DNA of 64,000 bases, taken from assembly GCA_023701285.1 (NCBI GenBank), contig JAMPXH010000002.1, forward strand, positions 1 to 64,000, written 5' to 3'. The notes beneath the pieces were generated by a model that ran no database searches, had not been told where the DNA came from, and saw only the letters and a list, made by a program, of their open reading frames with translations. The stretch is from Candidatus Didemnitutus sp. Lineage in GTDB: Bacteria > Verrucomicrobiota > Verrucomicrobiia > Opitutales > Opitutaceae. Positions 27,515 to 63,932 of the stretch are shown here, piece by piece; positions within the stretch are counted from its first letter, which is position 1, and every line of letters begins with the position of its first letter. The translations under genes and the position numbers were made by a program.

Positions 27515-30500
27515 TTACAGGCTCTTCTTGACCGACAGCGTGACGTAGCGCTGGCGCGGATCCTCGAAGCGGCTGTAGGGGCTGTAGACGTCAGTGCGGA
27601 AGGAAGGCTCCTTGTTGAAGACGTTGCGGACGCTGAGGGTCCACTTCGTGTTGTCGAACCAACGCTGCCAGCCGTCCTTGCCGCGGCCGGCGGGGATTTC
27701 GTAGCTCACCTGCATGTCCCAGAGCGTGGCCGACGAGATGTGGCTGCCGTCGAGCCCGTTGGCCGTCGGATAGACGACCGTGGGCGTGGTAGTCGGCGTG
27801 CTGTAGGAATCGATGTAGGTGACGGTGACGCCGCTGGTCCACCGGCCGTATTCCCAGAACACGGAGCCGTTGCCGCGCCATTCGAGCGGGCTGCTGGCGG
27901 TGGTGCCGGTGGTGCCGACGCGCTCGACGATGGGATTATTCGATAGGATTTGGTCGCGGAACGAGTCGGTCCACGTGAGCGACGCGAGCGCGGTCAGCCT
28001 GTTGCGGGCGCCGAGTTCGTGCGTGTAGCGGACCTTGGCATCGACACCCGAGGTCTTGGTGAAACCGACGTTGACCGGACGGTAGTCGATCGAGAGCACG
28101 GGCCCGAGCCAGCCGTTGGTGATGTCGGTCGCCGAGGGCGTGTCACGGATGACGCGACCGGGATAGGAATCGGGCGAGGCGAGGATGGCGGACGGACCGG
28201 AGGGGATGAGGATGGCGTCGATCTTCTCGATCTCCCAGAAATCCAGGGTGAGCGTGAGACCGGGCAGGACGCGCGGCGTGAGGATGATGCCGTAGTTCCA
28301 CGAAGTGGAGAGCTCGGGCTTCAGGTCGGGATTACCGCCGGAGATTTCCTCGTGCACGTAATTGTAGAGCAGGTTGCCGCGCGCCGGATCGGTGAAGGGC
28401 GTGATGGCTGCGGGGTTCACGCGCGGGCTCTCGTAGTTGGATTGGTCGGGCGGAAAGAAGCCCTCGGCATACGACACGCGGAAGGCGACGTCCTTGGTCG
28501 GCGCCACGCGCAGCGCGACGACCGGGCTGGTGGCGCTGGTGGAGTCGTCGGTGTTTTCCCAGCGCAGACCGGCGTTGAGCTCGGCGGACTCGATGGGGAT
28601 CGGGCGCCACTTCGAGCCGACGAGCGGCACGACACTCTCGAGGAAGACGGATTCCGTGCGGCGGCTCTGGTTGGCCGTGCTGTCGCTCGGCCCGATGATG
28701 CCCGTGGGGATGGCGGCGCGGATGGCGTCGCTGACACGGACGGTGGCGTTCGTGCGATACTTGCTCCAGATGACCTCGGCGCCCGGCGAGACGACGAGCG
28801 GGCCGGCAGGAAGATCGAAGATCTCGCCGACGGCGCGGAAATTCACCTGCGAGAGACCGTTGTAGTAGGTGTATTCGCGGCGGTATTCGAGATAGTCGGC
28901 CATGACGTCACCACGCGGGAAGACGGTGTGGTCAGCGAGCGGGTTGTAGAGCGCGCGACGCTGGGCTTGCGTGAGCGTGCCGACGGCGGTGCTGCTGACG
29001 AAGGTGTTGAGGTTCTGGTTGGTGTTGATGCCGGTCGAGTGGCTGCGGCCGTATTCGCCGGTGCCGTCGAGCGACCATTCCCACTTGTCGTTGAGCCGGC
29101 CCTTGAAGCCGAGCAACGCCCGCGCGCCCTGGCGCTCCTGGAAGAGTGACGGATCAGGCAGGTCGGCGGGATCGTAATAGACGGTGACAGGGACGCCGAC
29201 GAAGCCGGGCGTGACGTTGTTGCGGAAGGGATTGAGCGGATCCGTCGCGGAGAGGCTCAGCGTCGAAAGGAACATCGGGAAGCTATACTCCGAGCGGAAG
29301 TAGGTGACGCCCGCCTCGGCATACATGGAGAGCTTGTCCTTCACGAACTCGTGTTCGAGCTGCGAGCTGAACGAGTAGCGATCCTCGGGGCGGTAGATGA
29401 TGGAGCGATTGTAGCGCTCGCCGAGATTCGCGCGGCCCGCGCCGGCGACGAACGAGGCGGGTGTGAGCCCGGTGCCGTCCTGGTTCGCCGGGATGGCGGC
29501 GTAGCGGGCGCCGGTGACGCCGGGGATCGGCAGGGTGCCCGTGGTGGAGTTGATGAGGATGGTGCCGGGCATGCCGTTGAAGGCTTGCAGAATGTAGACC
29601 TCGTAGGCGGAGCGGCCGTTGACGGTCGCCGTGGTGTTGGCCGGATAGCGTGCGAGGAGGTTGTCGAGGTAGTTGCGCTGGTTGTTGTAGAGCGGGGCGC
29701 TGTGCTGGTAATCAACGGTGAAGGAGAACTGCGTCTTCCCGTCGTTGAGCGTGCGGCCCTCGAAATACGTCAGCTGGTAACGCTCGGCGCCGCCGTCCGT
29801 GCTCGTGCCGGCGCTGACCGTCAGGTCGCGACCGGTGTAATCGCGGCGGAGGATGATGTTGATGGCGCCGCCGATCGCCCCGCCGCCGTAGATGGCGGAG
29901 GCCGAGGACGGCAGGATCTCGATGCGCTCGATCGCGGCGGTCGGGATGCGATTGAGATCGGGTCCGGCGGTGAGGTTGCCGCGCTGGAGGCGGCGGCCGT
30001 TGACGAGGATCGTGGTCTGCAGCGAGGAGAAGCCGCGGAGCTTCACCTCGGAGTTCTGGTAGGTGGCGCCGCCGGCGAAGGCGGGGTTCATCGCCGAGCC
30101 CTGCAGGGACTGGCTGCCGTAGTCGCTCGTCTGGCCGACCATGCGGAACAGCTCCTCGATGGACGTCACACCCATGCGCTCGATGTCGACGCGGCTGATG
30201 ACGTCATAGGCCAGCGCGCCGGCCTCGTCGGTGCGGAAGACCGTCTGGTTGGCCAAGCCGTTGATGCGCGAGGTCGAGACCTCCAAGTTGGCCAAGCGGA
30301 CCACGCCGTCGGGGCCGCGTTCCAAGCTGCCCGACTCTTGGACCGCGGGCGCCACGCGGCGCACGGTGAACGACCCCGTGCCCTCGTCGCGCACCGCGGT
30401 CAGCCCGGTGCCTTCCAGCAATTGCTGGAGCGCGGGACCGATTTCAAGTTCGCCGCGCACGGCGTTCGTGCGCACGCCCTGCACGACCTCGGTGGGAAAC

Positions 30501-30685
30501 AGGACCTGCTGGCCGGCCTGCTCGGAAAAACGCTTCAACGCCCGCTCCGCCTCGTCGGCGGGCAGGTCGAAACGGCGCACCGCCTCCGCCGCAAAAGCGA
30601 CGGCGGCAAGCAGGCCGGCAAGGGTGACGGTGGCGAGCAGGCGCAAGGCCCGGCTCGGTGGACGCGAGGTGACGCGGTTCATCAT
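27515..30685 (-). CDS. TonB-dependent receptor with N-terminal STN (secretin/TonB) domain
   Basis: RRFDLPADEAERALKRFSEQAGQQVLFPTEVVQGVRTNAVRGELEIGPALQQLLEGTGL STN domain; plug VKLRGFSSLQTTILVNGRRLQ; C-terminal YVTLSVKKSL. Confidence 0.93.
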   Translation of the reverse strand: MMNRVTSRPPSRALRLLATVTLAGLLAAVAFAAEAVRRFDLPADEAERALKRFSEQAGQQVLFPTEVVQGVRTNAVRGELEIGPALQQLLEGTGLTAVRDEGTGSFTVRRVAPAVQESGSLERGPDGVVRLANLEVSTSRINGLANQTVFRTDEAGALAYDVISRVDIERMGVTSIEELFRMVGQTSDYGSQSLQGSAMNPAFAGGATYQNSEVKLRGFSSLQTTILVNGRRLQRGNLTAGPDLNRIPTAAIERIEILPSSASAIYGGGAIGGAINIILRRDYTGRDLTVSAGTSTDGGAERYQLTYFEGRTLNDGKTQFSFTVDYQHSAPLYNNQRNYLDNLLARYPANTTATVNGRSAYEVYILQAFNGMPGTILINSTTGTLPIPGVTGARYAAIPANQDGTGLTPASFVAGAGRANLGERYNRSIIYRPEDRYSFSSQLEHEFVKDKLSMYAEAGVTYFRSEYSFPMFLSTLSLSATDPLNPFRNNVTPGFVGVPVTVYYDPADLPDPSLFQERQGARALLGFKGRLNDKWEWSLDGTGEYGRSHSTGINTNQNLNTFVSSTAVGTLTQAQRRALYNPLADHTVFPRGDVMADYLEYRREYTYYNGLSQVNFRAVGEIFDLPAGPLVVSPGAEVIWSKYRTNATVRVSDAIRAAIPTGIIGPSDSTANQSRRTESVFLESVVPLVGSKWRPIPIESAELNAGLRWENTDDSTSATSPVVALRVAPTKDVAFRVSYAEGFFPPDQSNYESPRVNPAAITPFTDPARGNLLYNYVHEEISGGNPDLKPELSTSWNYGIILTPRVLPGLTLTLDFWEIEKIDAILIPSGPSAILASPDSYPGRVIRDTPSATDITNGWLGPVLSIDYRPVNVGFTKTSGVDAKVRYTHELGARNRLTALASLTWTDSFRDQILSNNPIVERVGTTGTTASSPLEWRGNGSVFWEYGRWTSGVTVTYIDSYSTPTTTPTVVYPTANGLDGSHISSATLWDMQVSYEIPAGRGKDGWQRWFDNTKWTLSVRNVFNKEPSFRTDVYSPYSRFEDPRQRYVTLSVKKSL

Positions 30686-30802
30686 GTTCGGTGTGTTAGG
30701 TCAGGTGAGACGGCCCGAAGGGGCCCGGCCGGCTCAACAAGGACGACGCGCCAGCGCGCGAAATCAGTTACAACAATGTGGCGGACCAGCCGCGCCCGTG
30801 TG

Positions 30803-31849
30803 TCACGGTGCGCGCCGCAACAGGATCTCGCCCGTCTCCCGCCGCTCCACGCTCACGCCCGAAAGCTCGAGCAGCCGCACGAAATCCTCGACCTTGTCCG
30901 CGATCACGAGGCCGCTGACGCGCAGATCGGCCAGGGTCTCGTCCGCGATGCGCAGTTGCTCGCGATTGTGGCGGTTCACCTGCGCGACCGCATCCGCCAG
31001 ACGCGTGCCCGAGAAATCCAGCCGCACCACCCGCCACGCGAGCCGCTCGCCCAACTCGGCCACGCTGACCGGCTTGATCTCCGGCGCGATGGGCTCGGCC
31101 CCGACATTCAACCGCACCAGCACGCGGCTGCCCGCGGGCACGACGGGCACGGAGCCGTCAGGCGCAATCAGGTCCGCGGAGTTGGCCGAGCCTTCGGGGC
31201 GGCCGACGGCCACGCGACCCTCGGTCACGAGCACCTCGACCTCGGTCGGCGCCAGCCGCACCGCGAACGCCGTGCCGACGGCACGGACCTCGAGGCCGTT
31301 CGCATCGACGATGAAGGGCCGCCGCCGGTCCTTCGTGACGGCAAAATGCGCCTCGCCGCGCAACAACCGCACCCGGCGAAGCTCGGCGGTGAACTCGACG
31401 GCAATCTCCGCCTCCTCGAGCAAGTCGACGACAGAGCCATCGGGCAACGTCTGCACCCGGCTGGGCGCCGCCGCGATGCTGGCCGGTGCCGCGGCGGGCA
31501 CGACCGTCGCCGGAGCCGGGCCGCTGCGCCACCACCAGCCGGCCGTGACGAGCATCAGGCAGGCGGCCAGACCGGAAAGCATCGTGCGGCGCACGTGGCG
31601 TCGGTGCGCGCGCCGGGCCAGCGCCGCCTCGGCCGCCGGGGCCGCGCCGTGGACCTGCGGGCCATCGAGCCGGCGCCACGCGGCGGAAAGCTGCGCCAGC
31701 GCCGCGGCATGGCTGGCGTCGGCTCCGACCCAGCGGGCCAGCTCCGCCTGCTCGGCCTCGGAGAGGCCGGCATCGAGCCGCGCGACCCACTCGGCCGCGC
31801 GCGTGCGCACGGCTGGGGCGATGGCGACGGAGGAGCGGCGGGGAGTCAT
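30803..31849 (-). CDS. FecR-like anti-sigma/signal transducer
   Basis: WVARLDAGLSEAEQAELARWVGADASHAAAL; FecR domain RRVRLLRGEAHFAVTKDRRRPFIVDANGLEVRAVGTAFAVR. Confidence 0.92.
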   Translation of the reverse strand: MTPRRSSVAIAPAVRTRAAEWVARLDAGLSEAEQAELARWVGADASHAAALAQLSAAWRRLDGPQVHGAAPAAEAALARRAHRRHVRRTMLSGLAACLMLVTAGWWWRSGPAPATVVPAAAPASIAAAPSRVQTLPDGSVVDLLEEAEIAVEFTAELRRVRLLRGEAHFAVTKDRRRPFIVDANGLEVRAVGTAFAVRLAPTEVEVLVTEGRVAVGRPEGSANSADLIAPDGSVPVVPAGSRVLVRLNVGAEPIAPEIKPVSVAELGERLAWRVVRLDFSGTRLADAVAQVNRHNREQLRIADETLADLRVSGLVIADKVEDFVRLLELSGVSVERRETGEILLRRAP

Positions 31850-32424
31850 CGTTTCACGCCACGACGGCGGAGGAATTCTTCGCATTTCTTCACGCCCCGG
31901 GCGATCTGCACCTGCACGGTCTGTTCGGACAGGCCGAGCCGGGCCGCGATTTCTTTCTGCGGCAGACCCCGGAGCTTGCGAAGGATGACGATTTCACGGC
32001 AACGCGGTGGCAGGGCGTCGATCGCAGTCACAAGCAGCGCGGTCTCTTCCGCGATGCTCGCCGCCTCGGCGACACCCGTCCTGTTATCTACGACGGGCAA
32101 GGCGGACAAATCAGTTACCGCGTCGATCGGCGACACGCGGTCGTGGCGCAGCCAGTCCAACGCCAGATGCCGGGCCACGCGGAAGAGGAACGCCCGCGCG
32201 GAGCGGATCGGCTCGGCGGTCTTCGCCTTCCAGACCCGCACGTAAGACTCCTGCACGACGTCGTCGACATCCCGCACCGTCGGGAACGAGCCGCGCAGAT
32301 ACGCGCGCAGCGAGGAATCGTGCGCATGCACTTCCTCGACGAACCAACGGGATCTCTCGGCATCCGGTTCGCTCACGATTAAGGTGACCGCGCGGTTGAT
32401 GCGGTCGACGAAGCGACCTGACAA
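31846..32424 (-). CDS. ECF RNA polymerase sigma factor (FecI-like)
   Basis: DVDDVVQESYVRVW region 2; LPPRCREIVILRKLRGLPQKEIAARLGLSEQTVQVQIARGVKKCEE region 4; ATGA overlap with fecR. Confidence 0.94.
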   Translation of the reverse strand: MSGRFVDRINRAVTLIVSEPDAERSRWFVEEVHAHDSSLRAYLRGSFPTVRDVDDVVQESYVRVWKAKTAEPIRSARAFLFRVARHLALDWLRHDRVSPIDAVTDLSALPVVDNRTGVAEAASIAEETALLVTAIDALPPRCREIVILRKLRGLPQKEIAARLGLSEQTVQVQIARGVKKCEEFLRRRGVKR

Positions 32425-33535: not shown

Positions 33536-34327
33536 TCAGGCGCGGGCTTGGCGGCGGCGGTAGGCGGCGAGCGCCAGCGCGGCGGCGCCGGCGAGCAGCG
33601 CGTAGGTGGACGGCTCCGGGATAGCCGAGACGCCGTTGACCTGCACGTTATCCAGCATGAACACGACGTCGCTGGAGATCACGCCGACGAGCGTCGATTC
33701 CTGGCCGTAGAACGTGGACGGCAGGTCGAGCGTGTAGGCGGTGTGCGTGTTGCCGCCGGCGATCGTCGTCATGCCGATCGAGGCGCTGTTGTAGAACCAC
33801 TCGATCGAGACCGCGCTATCGGCCGCAGCGGAGAACGAGAAGTTCGCCACGTTGCCGTTGAGCGCGGGGTCGAAGTCGGCGAAGCCGGCCAGATTCGTCG
33901 TCACCGTGAACGATTTGCCGGACATGCCGGCGAAACCGAGCGCGAGCGACGCCGGATCGGCGAACGAATTGCTCATCAGCGTGCCGGGGAAGTCGGCCAT
34001 GCCGCGGTTCTGCGTCGAGTCGCGCAGGTTGGAGATGGCGTAGACAAGGTTGGCGTCGGCATCGGCGAGCGCCCAGCCGATCGAGCCCGTGCCGGCGCTG
34101 ATGGGCGAGTTGTCGCCGTAGTGCGTGCTCACCGGGTTGAAGGCGCCGACGGACGAGTAGTTCGCCGGGATGCTGGTGGCGTTGACGAAGCTCGAGTCGT
34201 TCTGCGTGAACGCGAAGCCCTCGAATGTGAACTGGGCGAAGTCCCAACCGGCGACGAGCTGGACCTGCGCGTGGGCGAGGACCGGCGCGGCGAGGAGGAC
34301 CAGCGTGGGGAGGAGTTTGTTTTTCAT
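33536..34327 (-). CDS. PEP-CTERM sorting domain protein
   Basis: Signal peptide; C-terminal AIPEPSTYALLAGAAALALAAYRRRQARA. Confidence 0.9.
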   Translation of the reverse strand: MKNKLLPTLVLLAAPVLAHAQVQLVAGWDFAQFTFEGFAFTQNDSSFVNATSIPANYSSVGAFNPVSTHYGDNSPISAGTGSIGWALADADANLVYAISNLRDSTQNRGMADFPGTLMSNSFADPASLALGFAGMSGKSFTVTTNLAGFADFDPALNGNVANFSFSAAADSAVSIEWFYNSASIGMTTIAGGNTHTAYTLDLPSTFYGQESTLVGVISSDVVFMLDNVQVNGVSAIPEPSTYALLAGAAALALAAYRRRQARA

Positions 34328-34351: not shown

Positions 34352-35941
34352 TTACTGGTTGCCGCGCGTGACGAGGACGCCGCGCTTGTTGAGGGCGGTC
34401 CAACCGGTGGTCCAGAGATCGCTGGTCTTCACGGACGGGAAGGCGCCGCGGTAGGTGACGGTCGCGAAGAACGGGCTGTTGGGCAGCGCCGCGACGGGCG
34501 TGAGGCTGGCCGGGCTGCCACCCTGGCCGGTCTGGAGGGCGACGGGATTCACGCCGTTGGCGGCGGCGAGGTTCCAGGCCTTGAAGCCGGGGCTGGCGAC
34601 GCTGTTGTTCCAGCCGCTCGTGGCGGAATCGAAGGTGCCGGTGACGGAGCCGGTGGACTTGGTGAACGAGAGCGTGTTGGCGGTGTTGCCGTTGGCGGTG
34701 TTGGAACGGAGCACGATCTCGCCCGTGAGGGCGCGGGTGCGGGCGTCGAAGCCGTCGCTCTCGGAGCCGGTGGCGGCGTCGATGCGGAAGGACTGGTTGC
34801 AGCCGACGACGAGGCTGTTGAGCACCTCGCCGCCGAAGCCGGCGCGCATGCGGATGCCGTTGCCGGCGGTGCCGCCGAGGGCGGCGCGGCCGACGCCGGT
34901 GAGGTTGCTGATGACGCAATACTGGAAGGGACGGCCATTAGCGGTCATGCGGCTGGCGCCGCTGCTGCCGTTGGTCGGGTCCTCGTCATGGCCGTCGGCC
35001 TCGACGAGAGCGTCGCCGAAGGCGGAGTGCTGGAGCACGAAGAGGAACTGCGCGCCGCCGGTCCAGCCTTGGTCGACGTCGAAGCCGTCGTCCTCGACGA
35101 AGTTGATGTTGAGGTAGCGGACGTTGACCGTGCCGCCGAAGATCTCCACGCCGTCGTCGAGGTTGCAATAGACGTCGATGAACTCGACGAGCGTGCCCGC
35201 GCCGACGCCGGCGAGGGTGAGGCCGTTGATCTCGTTGTTGGCGGCGAGATTGTTGCCGCCGTGGCGGATGGAAATGTAAGCGAGCTTGCCGGAGCTGTGG
35301 AACGGATAGATGCCGCCGTAGGAGGTGGCGTCGGTCTCGGGCAGGCCCTCGATGTAGGCCTCGCCCTCGGCGTAGAAGCCGCCGCCGAGCGCGACGGTGT
35401 TGTCGCGGTTCGTGGGCGCCTCGCCGAGCACGATGATGCCGCCGGCGAGGCCGGCCATCGGGACGTTGGCGCTCACGACACCGGGGACGAGGTCGCCGGT
35501 CTGCTTCACGTAGGTGGGCGCGAGCGGCGCGGTCTTGGGATTGGCGTCGAGGAAGGTCGCGCCGACGGTCCAGCGGTCGGCGATGTTGTCGGCGTTGGCG
35601 TCGAGCGGGCGGCCGGTGCCGTCGTTCACGGCGGCGGTGGTGAAGATGATGGGATTGGCGGCGGTGCCGACGGCGTTGATCTTGCCGGACTTCGTGATGA
35701 CGAGCGTGCCGGGGTTGTAGGTGCTGCTGTTGGTGCGCGGCTGGCCGCGGATGATGGTGCCGGGCTCGATGGTGAGCGTGGCATTCTTCACGAAGACGAT
35801 GCCATTGAGCACGTATTCGTTGGACGCGGTCCAGGTGGTGTTGGTCGTGATGTCGCCGCCGGCGACTTCGACGATGGCAGCCTGCGCGGAGGCGGCGAAG
35901 AGGGCCGCGAGGGCGGCGAGTTGGATCAAGGTCTTTTTCAT
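34352..35941 (-). CDS. Exported right-handed beta-helix-like protein
   Basis: MKKTLIQLAALAALFAASAQA signal peptide; LTIEPGTIIRG...GTLVITKSGKINAVGTAANPIIFTT and repetitive parallel-beta-like segments. Confidence 0.72.
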   Translation of the reverse strand: MKKTLIQLAALAALFAASAQAAIVEVAGGDITTNTTWTASNEYVLNGIVFVKNATLTIEPGTIIRGQPRTNSSTYNPGTLVITKSGKINAVGTAANPIIFTTAAVNDGTGRPLDANADNIADRWTVGATFLDANPKTAPLAPTYVKQTGDLVPGVVSANVPMAGLAGGIIVLGEAPTNRDNTVALGGGFYAEGEAYIEGLPETDATSYGGIYPFHSSGKLAYISIRHGGNNLAANNEINGLTLAGVGAGTLVEFIDVYCNLDDGVEIFGGTVNVRYLNINFVEDDGFDVDQGWTGGAQFLFVLQHSAFGDALVEADGHDEDPTNGSSGASRMTANGRPFQYCVISNLTGVGRAALGGTAGNGIRMRAGFGGEVLNSLVVGCNQSFRIDAATGSESDGFDARTRALTGEIVLRSNTANGNTANTLSFTKSTGSVTGTFDSATSGWNNSVASPGFKAWNLAAANGVNPVALQTGQGGSPASLTPVAALPNSPFFATVTYRGAFPSVKTSDLWTTGWTALNKRGVLVTRGNQ

Positions 35942-36005
35942 GCGATGCAGGGTTGGCGTGGTGTCCGGGGACTCAGGTTCAGGCCGCCAGCTTGCCAGCC
36001 GCGTG

Positions 36006-36060
36006 TGACAAAACGGTGCGCGCCGCGTGACGAAACCCTGACGATTGCGTGACGAAACGG
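36006..36060 (-). promoter_or_regulatory. Five-unit 11-bp direct repeat array (Pho-box-like) upstream of the beta-helix-like gene
   Basis: TGACAAAACGG TGCGCGCCGCG TGACGAAACCC TGACGATTGCG TGACGAAACGG; four of five units start TGAC, exact 11-bp period. Confidence 0.7.
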
Positions 36061-36132: not shown

Positions 36133-36164
36133 AAATAAAAAAGGCCGGTCGCAGGGACCGGCCC
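36133..36164 (-). terminator. Intrinsic terminator downstream of TonB receptor
   Basis: Reverse strand GGGCCGGTCCCTGCGACCGGCCTTTTTTATTTTC. Confidence 0.8.
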
Positions 36165-36221: not shown

Positions 36222-39143
36222 TCAGAAACGCCGCGAGAGCGTGAGCGAGAAATCGCGGCCGGCGCGGTAATGCGTGCGCTCGTAAGTCTGCACGGTCGCG
36301 GCCGGATCGTAGATGAGCCCGCGCGCGGGGTTGACGAGGTTCTTGGCGGAGAACTTGAGCGTCCACGCCTCGCCGAGGCGCTGCGAGAGATTGAGGTCGT
36401 AGCGGTCGTAGCCGCGCTCGTAGAGGTCGAACTCCGGCGGGTAACCCGAACCGGGCAGCGTGAGCACGTCGCTGATCGCGTAGTAGGCGAGCGTGAGCTC
36501 CGTGCCCCACTTCACCTGCCGGTAGGTGAGGTCGGCGTTGACGAGCCAGCGCGGCTGGTCGAAGAGCGGGCGCGACACCGGCAGCAGCGCCGGGTCGAGG
36601 TAGACGACGTTGCGCAGCTGCGCGATCGTGGTGGGATGCAGCGGCACCTCGGCGTCGATGCGGGTGAAGTTGCCGCCGACGGTCGTCGAGTCGAAGAAGC
36701 GACCGAGGAAACCGAGGCTCTTGCGCACCTCGATCTCCCAGCCCTCGAGCGTGGCGTCGCCGGGATTGTTGGCCCAGCTCTCGAAGCGGCCGAGGGTGGC
36801 GTTCTCGAAGAGGAGCTTCTCGATCGGACGCGCGATGTCCTTCCGGAAAACGCTGACCGCGAGCAGGTCGTTGGCGCCGCGGCCGAAGAACCACTCGGCG
36901 CGCGCGTCGTAGTTTTCCACTTCGCTGGGTTCGAGCGCAGGGTTGCCGAGCACGAGGTTGCCGGTGTCGATGCTCTGCGAGAAATACGCGCCGACCTCGC
37001 GGAACGACGGCCGGGCGCGCGTCGCGGAGTAATTGAGCCGCAGGAAGACGCGGCGGTGCGGGTTCCACGTGAGCCCGAGCGCGGGCAGCGCGTCGTCGCG
37101 GTCAAGGCGCGTGGCGAGACGGTCAGGCGTGGTGCCGAGGATCGGCTGCACGCCGGCCTGCTGGTAGATGTTGGCCGCGGTCTCGTTGCCGAACTGGCCG
37201 AGGCCGTCGGAGTTCATCTGAAAGGTCTCCCAGCGGAAGCCGCCGGCGAGCTTGAGGGCCCAGGGCAGCTCCAGCACGGCGGATGCGTAGAGCGCCTCGA
37301 TCTCGCGACGGCCGCGGGAGGAGGAAAGTCCGTCGTTCGAGCCGGCCTCGACGAGCAGGCGGTCGTAGAGTCCCTGCGCGGTCGAGGCGACGAAACTGGT
37401 GCCGGAGGGCGGCGCATAGACGGAGGCCTGGCCGTCGTTGGCGCGGTCGGAGGCTTCGCGCGCGGCGCCGAGGCGGAGCGTGGAATCCTCGCGACCGAGG
37501 CCGCGGAAGGGCAGCGCGAAGTCCGCGCGCGCGATGTCCTGGCGCTCCAGCGTGTCGCTCCACGTGCGCACGAGCGGCTCGGGCGCGACGTTGGTGGCGG
37601 GCAACAGGTAGGTGCCGGGCGTCGCCTCGCCAGCGGCGCCGAGTTGCTGCGCGTAGGTGGCCTCGGTGTAGTGCGGCTCCTTCTGGTAGGTCTTCGCGCG
37701 CTGGGCGGACCAGCTGGCCTTCAACTCGCGGCTGCCGAGCGGGAACACGTGCTCGCCGCGCACTTGGAAGGCGGTGAGGTGGCGCTGGCGGTAATAGGTG
37801 ACGTCGCGCTTCCAGCTGTAGTCGGCGAGCTCCGAGATGTTCACCACCGGGTCGAATTGCTGCGACTCCACGACGTCGATGCCGCTGCGCGAGACGAGCG
37901 CGGTGAACCCGAGCTGGTGTTCGGGCGTCAGCGTCACGCCGATGCTCGCGAGCGCGCCGAGCGTGGTCTCGTATTCGCCCTGCGTGTAATGACCCGAGCC
38001 GAAATCGGAGGCGGGCAACAGGATCCCCTGCTCCATCGTGCTCGGTTGGGCCGGGCGCGGCGGCGGCGGGAACGGCCGCGCGGGCTGGCGGTTGCGCGAG
38101 GTGAGCGCGGTCTTGCTCCCGCGCTCGAGCGTCACGCCGTGGTCGTAGGTCAGCGCGGCGAGCACGCCGACGGTGCGGCCGGCGATCTCGAAACGGTCGC
38201 CATAGACGAAACTCGCCTTCTGTCCGGGCTCGGGATTGCTGCGGCCGGGCACGACCTGGAACGCCGCCCGCTCGCCGCGCGCCGGGCGGTCGCCCTCGCC
38301 GCTCGCATAGCGGTCGCGGTTGCCGCGCGTGCCGTAGTCCGGCACCCCGCCGCGGCCGGCGCCGTCGTGCCACTTGAGGCCGAGCGCCAGCTCGATCTCG
38401 CGCTGATCGGGGATGAAGCGCGTGTTCAGATCCACGCTGCCACCGGACGTGTCGCCCCACATCTCGGGCATGAAGGCCTTGCTGACCACGATGGTGTCGA
38501 GGAGCTTGGCGGGGAACAGATCGAGTTGCACCGCCTGCTTCTCCGGGTCGGGGCTCGGGAGCTTGAGCCGGTTGAGCAGCGTGTTGCCGTAGCGGTCGCT
38601 CAGGCCGCGCACGACGGCGAACTCGCCGCCGGCGAGCGAGACGCCGGGGAGCCGGATGAGCGCCTCGGCGGCGTCGCTCGCGGCGAATTTCGACAGCATC
38701 TCCGGACTCACCGCGTCGATCGGCACCTCCGTGCGCCGGCGCAGCGCCAGCACGCCGGCCGCGGAATTCTCCGCAATGCTCGATTTCACCTCGAATTTCT
38801 CCATCCGCACCACGTCATCGCGCACCCGGTGCAACTGCATCGTCACATAGGCCGCGCGGCCGGACTCGACCGCCACGTCGCGCAACTGCGCGGGCTGGAA
38901 GCCGTCCTTCGCGAACTCCAGCTGCACCACACCAGCGGGCAGCGCACCGATGAGGAAGCGGCCCGTCAAGTCCGTCACCGCGGACTCCTCCGTGCCGGCC
39001 ACACGCACCGTGGTCCCGAGCAACGGCGTGCCCGTGCCGGCGTCGTAAACCTGACCGGAGACGACGCCGGCGGCGAGGACGCGACCAACGAGGCCGAGAC
39101 CGAGAAACGAGAGAACGAGGAGGAGGCGAAGACGCGAGGACAT
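36222..39143 (-). CDS. TonB-dependent receptor with N-terminal carboxypeptidase-regulatory-like domain
   Basis: VVSGQVYDAGTGTPLLGTTVRVAGTEESAVTDLTGRFLIGALPAG; plug VSLAGGEFAVVRGLSDRYGNTLLNRLKLPS; C-terminal FSLTLSRRF. Confidence 0.93.
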   Translation of the reverse strand: MSSRLRLLLVLSFLGLGLVGRVLAAGVVSGQVYDAGTGTPLLGTTVRVAGTEESAVTDLTGRFLIGALPAGVVQLEFAKDGFQPAQLRDVAVESGRAAYVTMQLHRVRDDVVRMEKFEVKSSIAENSAAGVLALRRRTEVPIDAVSPEMLSKFAASDAAEALIRLPGVSLAGGEFAVVRGLSDRYGNTLLNRLKLPSPDPEKQAVQLDLFPAKLLDTIVVSKAFMPEMWGDTSGGSVDLNTRFIPDQREIELALGLKWHDGAGRGGVPDYGTRGNRDRYASGEGDRPARGERAAFQVVPGRSNPEPGQKASFVYGDRFEIAGRTVGVLAALTYDHGVTLERGSKTALTSRNRQPARPFPPPPRPAQPSTMEQGILLPASDFGSGHYTQGEYETTLGALASIGVTLTPEHQLGFTALVSRSGIDVVESQQFDPVVNISELADYSWKRDVTYYRQRHLTAFQVRGEHVFPLGSRELKASWSAQRAKTYQKEPHYTEATYAQQLGAAGEATPGTYLLPATNVAPEPLVRTWSDTLERQDIARADFALPFRGLGREDSTLRLGAAREASDRANDGQASVYAPPSGTSFVASTAQGLYDRLLVEAGSNDGLSSSRGRREIEALYASAVLELPWALKLAGGFRWETFQMNSDGLGQFGNETAANIYQQAGVQPILGTTPDRLATRLDRDDALPALGLTWNPHRRVFLRLNYSATRARPSFREVGAYFSQSIDTGNLVLGNPALEPSEVENYDARAEWFFGRGANDLLAVSVFRKDIARPIEKLLFENATLGRFESWANNPGDATLEGWEIEVRKSLGFLGRFFDSTTVGGNFTRIDAEVPLHPTTIAQLRNVVYLDPALLPVSRPLFDQPRWLVNADLTYRQVKWGTELTLAYYAISDVLTLPGSGYPPEFDLYERGYDRYDLNLSQRLGEAWTLKFSAKNLVNPARGLIYDPAATVQTYERTHYRAGRDFSLTLSRRF

Positions 39144-39358
39144 GGAGTGGTCGCACGCGCCGGGACGATGGCCGCCGGCACGCGCGCGCCACTCACAACC
39201 AGCGTGCGCCGCGCCTCCGCAAACGCGAAGCGCCGTCGCCACACAATCTTCACCGGCGCGTCACCGCTCCGGCACAAAGGTGACATTTTTCACGCCGCCT
39301 GCGTGCATACGCTACGACGCGCCACGTCACACATCCGCCCGCGCCGCCGGCCTCCGCG

Positions 39359-63267: not shown

Positions 63268-63932
63268 GCCAGCTGGTAACCCGTCCCGCGCACGGTCTTG
63301 ATGAAGGGCGCCTCGCCGTCGCGCTCGAATTTCTGCCGCAGCCGCCGCACGTAGACGTCGATCAGGTTCGTCTCGAGATCGTAGGAGGCGTCCCAGACCT
63401 TTTCCGCGATCAACGTGCGCGTGAGCACGCGGCGCGGGTTTTGCAGGAAGAGCTCCAGCAGCGCGAACTCGCGGCTCGTCAACTCCACCGGCTGCCCTCC
63501 GCACTCGGCCGTGCGCGCGAGCAGGTCGAGCCGCACGCCGCGGTGTTCCAGCACCGTGTGCCGCGGACCCGTGCTCTGGCGGCGGAGCAGCGAGCGGATG
63601 CGCGCCACGAGCTCGTCGACGCTGAAGGGCTTCGGCAGGTAGTCGTCCGCGCCGAGGTTGAGGCCGCGGATGCGGTCGTCCACGGCATCGCGCGCGCTCA
63701 GGATCAGCACCGGCTCGTTGAAACCCGCCGCGCGCCACTCGCGCAGGAGTTCGAGTCCGTCGCCGTCGGGCAACCCGAGGTCGAGCACCACCGCGTCGTA
63801 GGGCGACTCCGCCAGCGCATCGCGCGCGGCAGCGAGCGTCGGCGTCACGCGCACCGTGTAGGCCTGCTCGCGGAGCGCCTGCTCGATGAACTGGCCGACC
63901 TTGCGCTCGTCTTCGACGATGAGGATTTTCAT
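63264..63932 (-). CDS. OmpR-family response regulator
   Basis: MKILIVEDERKVGQFIEQAL...VVLDLGLPDGDG...PKPFSVDEL; winged helix NLIDVYVRRLRQKFERDGEAPFIKTVRGTGYQLA. Confidence 0.95.
   Translation of the reverse strand: MKILIVEDERKVGQFIEQALREQAYTVRVTPTLAAARDALAESPYDAVVLDLGLPDGDGLELLREWRAAGFNEPVLILSARDAVDDRIRGLNLGADDYLPKPFSVDELVARIRSLLRRQSTGPRHTVLEHRGVRLDLLARTAECGGQPVELTSREFALLELFLQNPRRVLTRTLIAEKVWDASYDLETNLIDVYVRRLRQKFERDGEAPFIKTVRGTGYQLA

Follow-up and report, generated by a model that had tools for sequence, protein, structure and literature searches.

Organization of the Locus

The window (the whole 64-kb stretch of DNA that was analysed) carries on its minus strand a TonB-dependent receptor gene, followed by the genes of an exported beta-helix-like protein and of a PEP-CTERM protein (Table 1). 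An array of 11-bp repeats precedes the beta-helix gene, and an intrinsic terminator separates this array from the receptor. The preliminary description had placed the PEP-CTERM ORF 24 bp behind the beta-helix ORF; this gap is correct, and the two genes are probably co-transcribed. The receptor ORF is given as listed, with its true start probably located further in.

Just downstream of the cluster, another TonB receptor, with an STN domain, is accompanied by a FecR gene and an ECF sigma gene (27515-32424). No 11-bp array was found in this region. An OmpR-family response regulator gene is located near the window end (63270-63932), 27 kb from the array.

Table 1. Features of the beta-helix/TonB receptor locus in the window.
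Feature	Position	Strand	Basis or remark
PEP-CTERM protein, 24 bp downstream of the beta-helix gene	33536..34327	-	ORF and domain match
Exported beta-helix-like protein, 529 aa, ElpS/FI-FII-like	34352..35941	-	homologues, synteny, AlphaFold
Putative -10 element CAAGCT	35989..35994	-	spacing inference; weak hexamer
Proposed PhoB operator with an 11-bp period (extended Pho box)	36006..36060	-	pattern and matrix scan
Intrinsic terminator, GGGCCGGTC-loop-GACCGGCCT, T-rich tail	36142..36164	-	separates the receptor gene from the array
TonB-dependent receptor (CarboxypepD_reg domain); its pairing with the beta-helix gene is conserved	36222..39242	-	ORF as listed
Degenerate array of 11-bp units before the TonB receptor gene, oppositely oriented	39223..39277	+	matrix scan and pattern

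The Exported Beta-Helix-Like Protein

The 529-aa protein belongs to no family of Pfam or NCBIfam, and no relative was identified by a sequence search of the PDB. A signal peptide is recognizable by eye at the N-terminus, and the same inspection reveals no lipobox, as the cleavage site (MKKTLIQLAALAALFAASAQA-AIVE) is without a cysteine. The AlphaFold model is strand-rich (pTM 0.86, mean pLDDT 79). Its top Foldseek matches are beta-helix proteins (tailspike, polygalacturonase, chondroitinase B), although weak ones, with a best E of 1.2e-3 and TM of about 0.2-0.3.

Homologues were detected by tblastn in Alteromonas (2e-26), Indioceanicola (3e-24) and Sphingomonas (E 1e-16). The plasmid-borne homologues of the first two cover 92% of the query, that of Sphingomonas 48%. 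In Alteromonas, the gene order is phoR, pstS, oxygenase, beta-helix homologue, TonB receptor, ExbB; in Indioceanicola, the homologue is followed by a TonB receptor and a type II secretion system (T2SS), and in Sphingomonas, it likewise precedes TonB receptor and T2SS genes. Canonical CTGTCAT boxes before the plasmid-borne homologues reach at best 11 of 14 matches (Alteromonas, Sphingomonas), which is suggestive only.

Two known systems resemble this arrangement. ElpS (CC0170) of Caulobacter crescentus is made under phosphate starvation, and its gene adjoins the TonB receptor CC0171 and a T2SS (PMC2996285). As in the window, an exported surface protein is encoded next to a TonB receptor gene, and the order beta-helix protein, TonB receptor, T2SS is that of the alphaproteobacterial homologues of the window protein. 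In the window, on the contrary, the order is reversed, with the receptor first; no T2SS genes were seen adjacent, a PEP-CTERM gene lies downstream, and the protein has a plain signal peptide. The second system consists of FI and FII, which are encoded beside TonB transporters and which, in Flavobacterium, rank with the proteins that respond most strongly to phosphate starvation by induction; a modest homology to ElpS has been claimed for them, and they were modelled on polygalacturonase (PMC8115612). The PUSIII and PUSIV loci of Flavobacterium johnsoniae combine a beta-helix (pectin-lyase-fold) surface protein with a CarboxypepD_reg TonB transporter, as the window does with its putative beta-helix protein, and PUSIII additionally includes genes for FecR and sigma factors, such as are present 1-6 kb downstream in the window (PMC8115612). 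FI and FII differ in being Bacteroidetes lipoproteins, and the likeness is one of description. No Pho box is reported for PUSIII/PUSIV in the main text of that study (PMC8115612).

Because the lipoprotein signal is missing, the 529-aa protein is labelled ElpS/FI-FII-like and not a member of either group. This assignment is suggested by synteny and moderate similarity, ElpS and FI/FII being set beside it by description. The protein had been called unannotated, which is true as far as domain families go, but its kind is not new. By analogy, the beta-helix protein and the importer would form a pair for phosphorus scavenging of the kind described in Caulobacter and Flavobacterium.

The 11-bp Array and the Putative Promoter

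The array, situated 65-119 bp before the start codon (ATG base 35941), had been presented as five consecutive 11-bp units. Its coordinates and letters are exact, and on the gene strand it reads GTCACGCAATC GTCAGGGTTTC GTCACGCGGCG CGCACCGTTTT GTCAC. However, the second unit of that description, TGCGCGCCGCG, is degenerate, with only two of its four core bases fitting the consensus. As this unit misses the consensus, the array is made of three consecutive perfect cores (GTCA), a degenerate one and another perfect one, with 18 of the 20 core bases matching.

In the E. coli Pho box, A/T-rich positions precede the core, and the same is seen in the window array. The E. coli box consists of tandem 11-bp direct repeats (PMC3978041), and the array shares with it the direct repeats of this period near a -10 element and the TGTCA/GTCAC core. 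Instead of two units, three to five are present here, and the core is GTMAC, with GC-richer spacers, instead of CTGTCAT.

The array was compared with pst promoters by means of a unit matrix derived from six other genus genomes (G001, G004, G005, G006, G007, G010), from which the window's own genome and its near-identical relative were excluded. Over the whole window and both strands, the array is the top position with 19.7 bits; the next score, 3.1 bits, is that of the same array read in reverse. The spacing and orientation are also those of pst promoters: the last GTCAC is 10 nt from the putative -10 hexamer CAAGCT, and seven pst promoters have the same distance from their last unit to a TANNCT-like hexamer, their arrays being oriented as the one before the beta-helix gene. 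No sigma-70 promoter passes in a promoter scan. When the genome is searched with the complete 38-position pst model, with matches accepted up to E 10, the promoter of pst is recovered (E 1e-5) and, with a weak score, the lipid-remodelling operon described below. The model misses the window array, in which the spacers and one unit (GTCAG) are different.

A chance origin of the repeats in GC-rich intergenic DNA, with no role in regulation, is very unlikely. In 8.4 Mb of first-order random sequence, the unit matrix reaches a maximum of 10.7 bits, so that none of 8.4 million random positions attains the score of the array, the matrix having been trained on other genomes. The exact array is moreover kept in the sole close relative possessing the gene (97% identical protein). 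The pattern GTCA-N7-GTCA-N7-GTCA with at most one mismatch is matched once in the window, for 0.17 expected from shuffles, and its exact form is encountered in only two places of the 4.02-Mb genome, the window array and a reversed array at C17:11529-11565. What would fit a chance origin is the degenerate unit and the behaviour of the loose pattern: with two mismatches allowed, the genome has no excess, with 15 arrays versus 18 in the backwards-read control. The genome search for arrays comprised patterns, one sequence-only model and targeted stretches.

Arrays at Phosphate Genes

The same motif is present before phosphate genes of the same genome. A one-mismatch match (C85:4795-4820) corresponds to the promoter of an operon that starts with a Porin_5 gene and continues with pstS, pstC and pstA, and a four-unit array is located upstream of an operon encoding a glycosyltransferase, a PlcP-like metallophosphoesterase and an MGDG-synthase-like protein, i.e., a lipid-remodelling cluster. 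Pho boxes have been proposed for lipid-remodelling clusters of similar kind (PMC4796936). The array of the porin-pst operon is found upstream in all six other genus members for which the operon start and flanks were retrieved (for example, TTCGTCACACGGCCGTCACGAAGCCGTAACAATCG), and the 11-bp phasing is thus conserved in pst promoters across the genus.

Conservation of the Gene Pair

A search of 141 related genomes recovered homologues of the beta-helix protein in 39 of them. At the retrieved loci, a same-strand TonB receptor gene is the usual neighbour. Seven of the 34 order-level pair loci adjoin pstS or a pst-linked porin. At these 34 loci, the density of arrays per 10 kb is 8.2 upstream of the TonB receptor and 13.9 upstream of pst genes, for 0.82 (one hit) upstream of the beta-helix gene and 0.14 elsewhere. 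Across the order, arrays are enriched before the receptor of the same pair, where they are about 58 times denser than elsewhere. Several of the matches counted as elsewhere are themselves phosphate promoters, such as the porin promoter in L133.

The exact array of the window is common to only the one close relative mentioned above. A homologue of 42% identity, from another family, has its own array, but the majority of the distant beta-helix homologues lack one immediately before the gene. As the arrays of most relatives, where seen, precede the receptor, they may serve both genes.

The receptor of the window also has its own array. In the matrix scan with four or five units, it is the next separate place after the main array, and it was recovered as well as two overlapping pattern matches. 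Arrays before the receptor of the pair are mostly reversed, in eight of ten matches (L120 included); examples are the one in the window and those in L122, L128, L130, L131, L139, L141 and L144. The reversal in L141 is explained by a phytase-like gene running divergently there; no close divergent gene was seen near the reversed arrays of L128, L131 and L144.

Proposed Function

The array is most likely a Pho box for the PhoB-type regulator of the host, switching on the beta-helix and PEP-CTERM genes under phosphate starvation. This reading had been put forward in the preliminary description. It is favoured by the matrix rank and the pst-like spacing, by the array enrichment upstream of receptors, by the phosphate context of the pair and the layouts of its homologues, and by the resemblance to the phosphate-starvation pairs already described (PMC2996285, PMC8115612). 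When phosphate is scarce, the GTCAC units beside the -10 element would be occupied head to tail by phosphorylated PhoB, and the beta-helix gene would be activated together with the PEP-CTERM gene that follows it. The exported protein would work with the neighbouring TonB-dependent receptor in a division of labour; at the cell surface, it would probably bind or cleave a substrate containing phosphorus, which is then imported. The array is, on the sequence evidence, very probably a phosphate-starvation on-switch for a secreted beta-helix protein whose gene accompanies that of an outer-membrane importer.

As a terminator lies between the two genes of the pair, it is probably the beta-helix and PEP-CTERM genes that the array drives. 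The receptor transcript probably ends at this terminator, transcription being restarted at the beta-helix gene by the strong array. This is reminiscent of Caulobacter, in which starvation induces elpS while the receptor gene is constitutive (PMC2996285). The earlier idea of a system that perhaps includes the adjacent receptor must be qualified: the pair is conserved, but a terminator lies in between, and the receptor has a weaker, reversed array of its own.

It is also conceivable, but quite unlikely, that an array bound by PhoB represses or has another role, such as setting separate programmes for the receptor and beta-helix genes. PhoB does repress at some site positions (PMC10294691), and the reversed array of the receptor, with its mostly reversed counterparts in relatives, would suit such a role. 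So would the separate expression of constitutive cc0171 and starvation-induced elpS in Caulobacter (PMC2996285). At the beta-helix gene, however, orientation and spacing are those of pst promoters, for which activation is expected.

More tentatively, and with considerable doubt, this could be a lineage-specific extended Pho box of three to five GTMAC units at 11-bp intervals, with the same operator reversed at the TonB receptor promoters, so that a single regulator would control importer and surface protein from arrays of opposite orientation. We know of no such layout of oppositely oriented arrays for PhoB.

The system appears to be of a known kind in a little-described place. The phosphate-starvation beta-helix/TonB receptor pair of Caulobacter and Flavobacterium would be extended to another lineage, and the question of the substrate of ElpS/FI-FII-like proteins becomes testable in more organisms. 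In the full-text literature searched, Verrucomicrobia, PhoB and the Pho box are seldom treated together; if the host belongs to this phylum, as its gene content may suggest, its Pho regulon is little described. The operator matrix is usable for mapping the phosphate regulon of this lineage.

Candidate Regulators

The best PhoB match in the genome scores 249 bits, below the curated cut-off of 296, which no regulator reaches. The gene of this candidate (C191:25841-26539) is followed by that of a PAS-containing kinase; its recognition helix, RTVDTHVRRLR, is presumably like that of E. coli PhoB. A regulator linked to a VWA protein has a different recognition helix, RTLDQHVAQLR. Its operon (VWA protein, histidine kinase, OmpR-type regulator) is preceded by the reversed four-unit GTCA-N7 array at C17:11529-11565 (L057:8530-8566), possibly for autoregulation by this other regulator.

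The window array could alternatively be the operator of a different OmpR-family regulator, for instance the VWA-linked one, and the pair would answer another signal. The only other exact array of the genome indeed precedes that operon, and the window unit GTCAGGG scores 12.7 with the VWA matrix versus 3.2 with the pst matrix. Nevertheless, the array of the VWA operon runs the other way and is built of another unit (TTGTCAG), and the four good units of the window sum to 28.6 with the pst matrix versus 20.4 with the VWA matrix. Array orientation, -10 spacing and gene family point to phosphate, and this alternative is considered unlikely. Both the VWA-linked regulator and a chance origin were thus judged less likely than the Pho box.

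Arrays similar to that of the VWA operon are present in other genus members (L089, L094, L104). In L097, L102 and L111 (G010, G006 and G008), 11-bp GTCA arrays are located close upstream of receiver-domain response-regulator genes, with one unit degenerate in those of L102 and L111.
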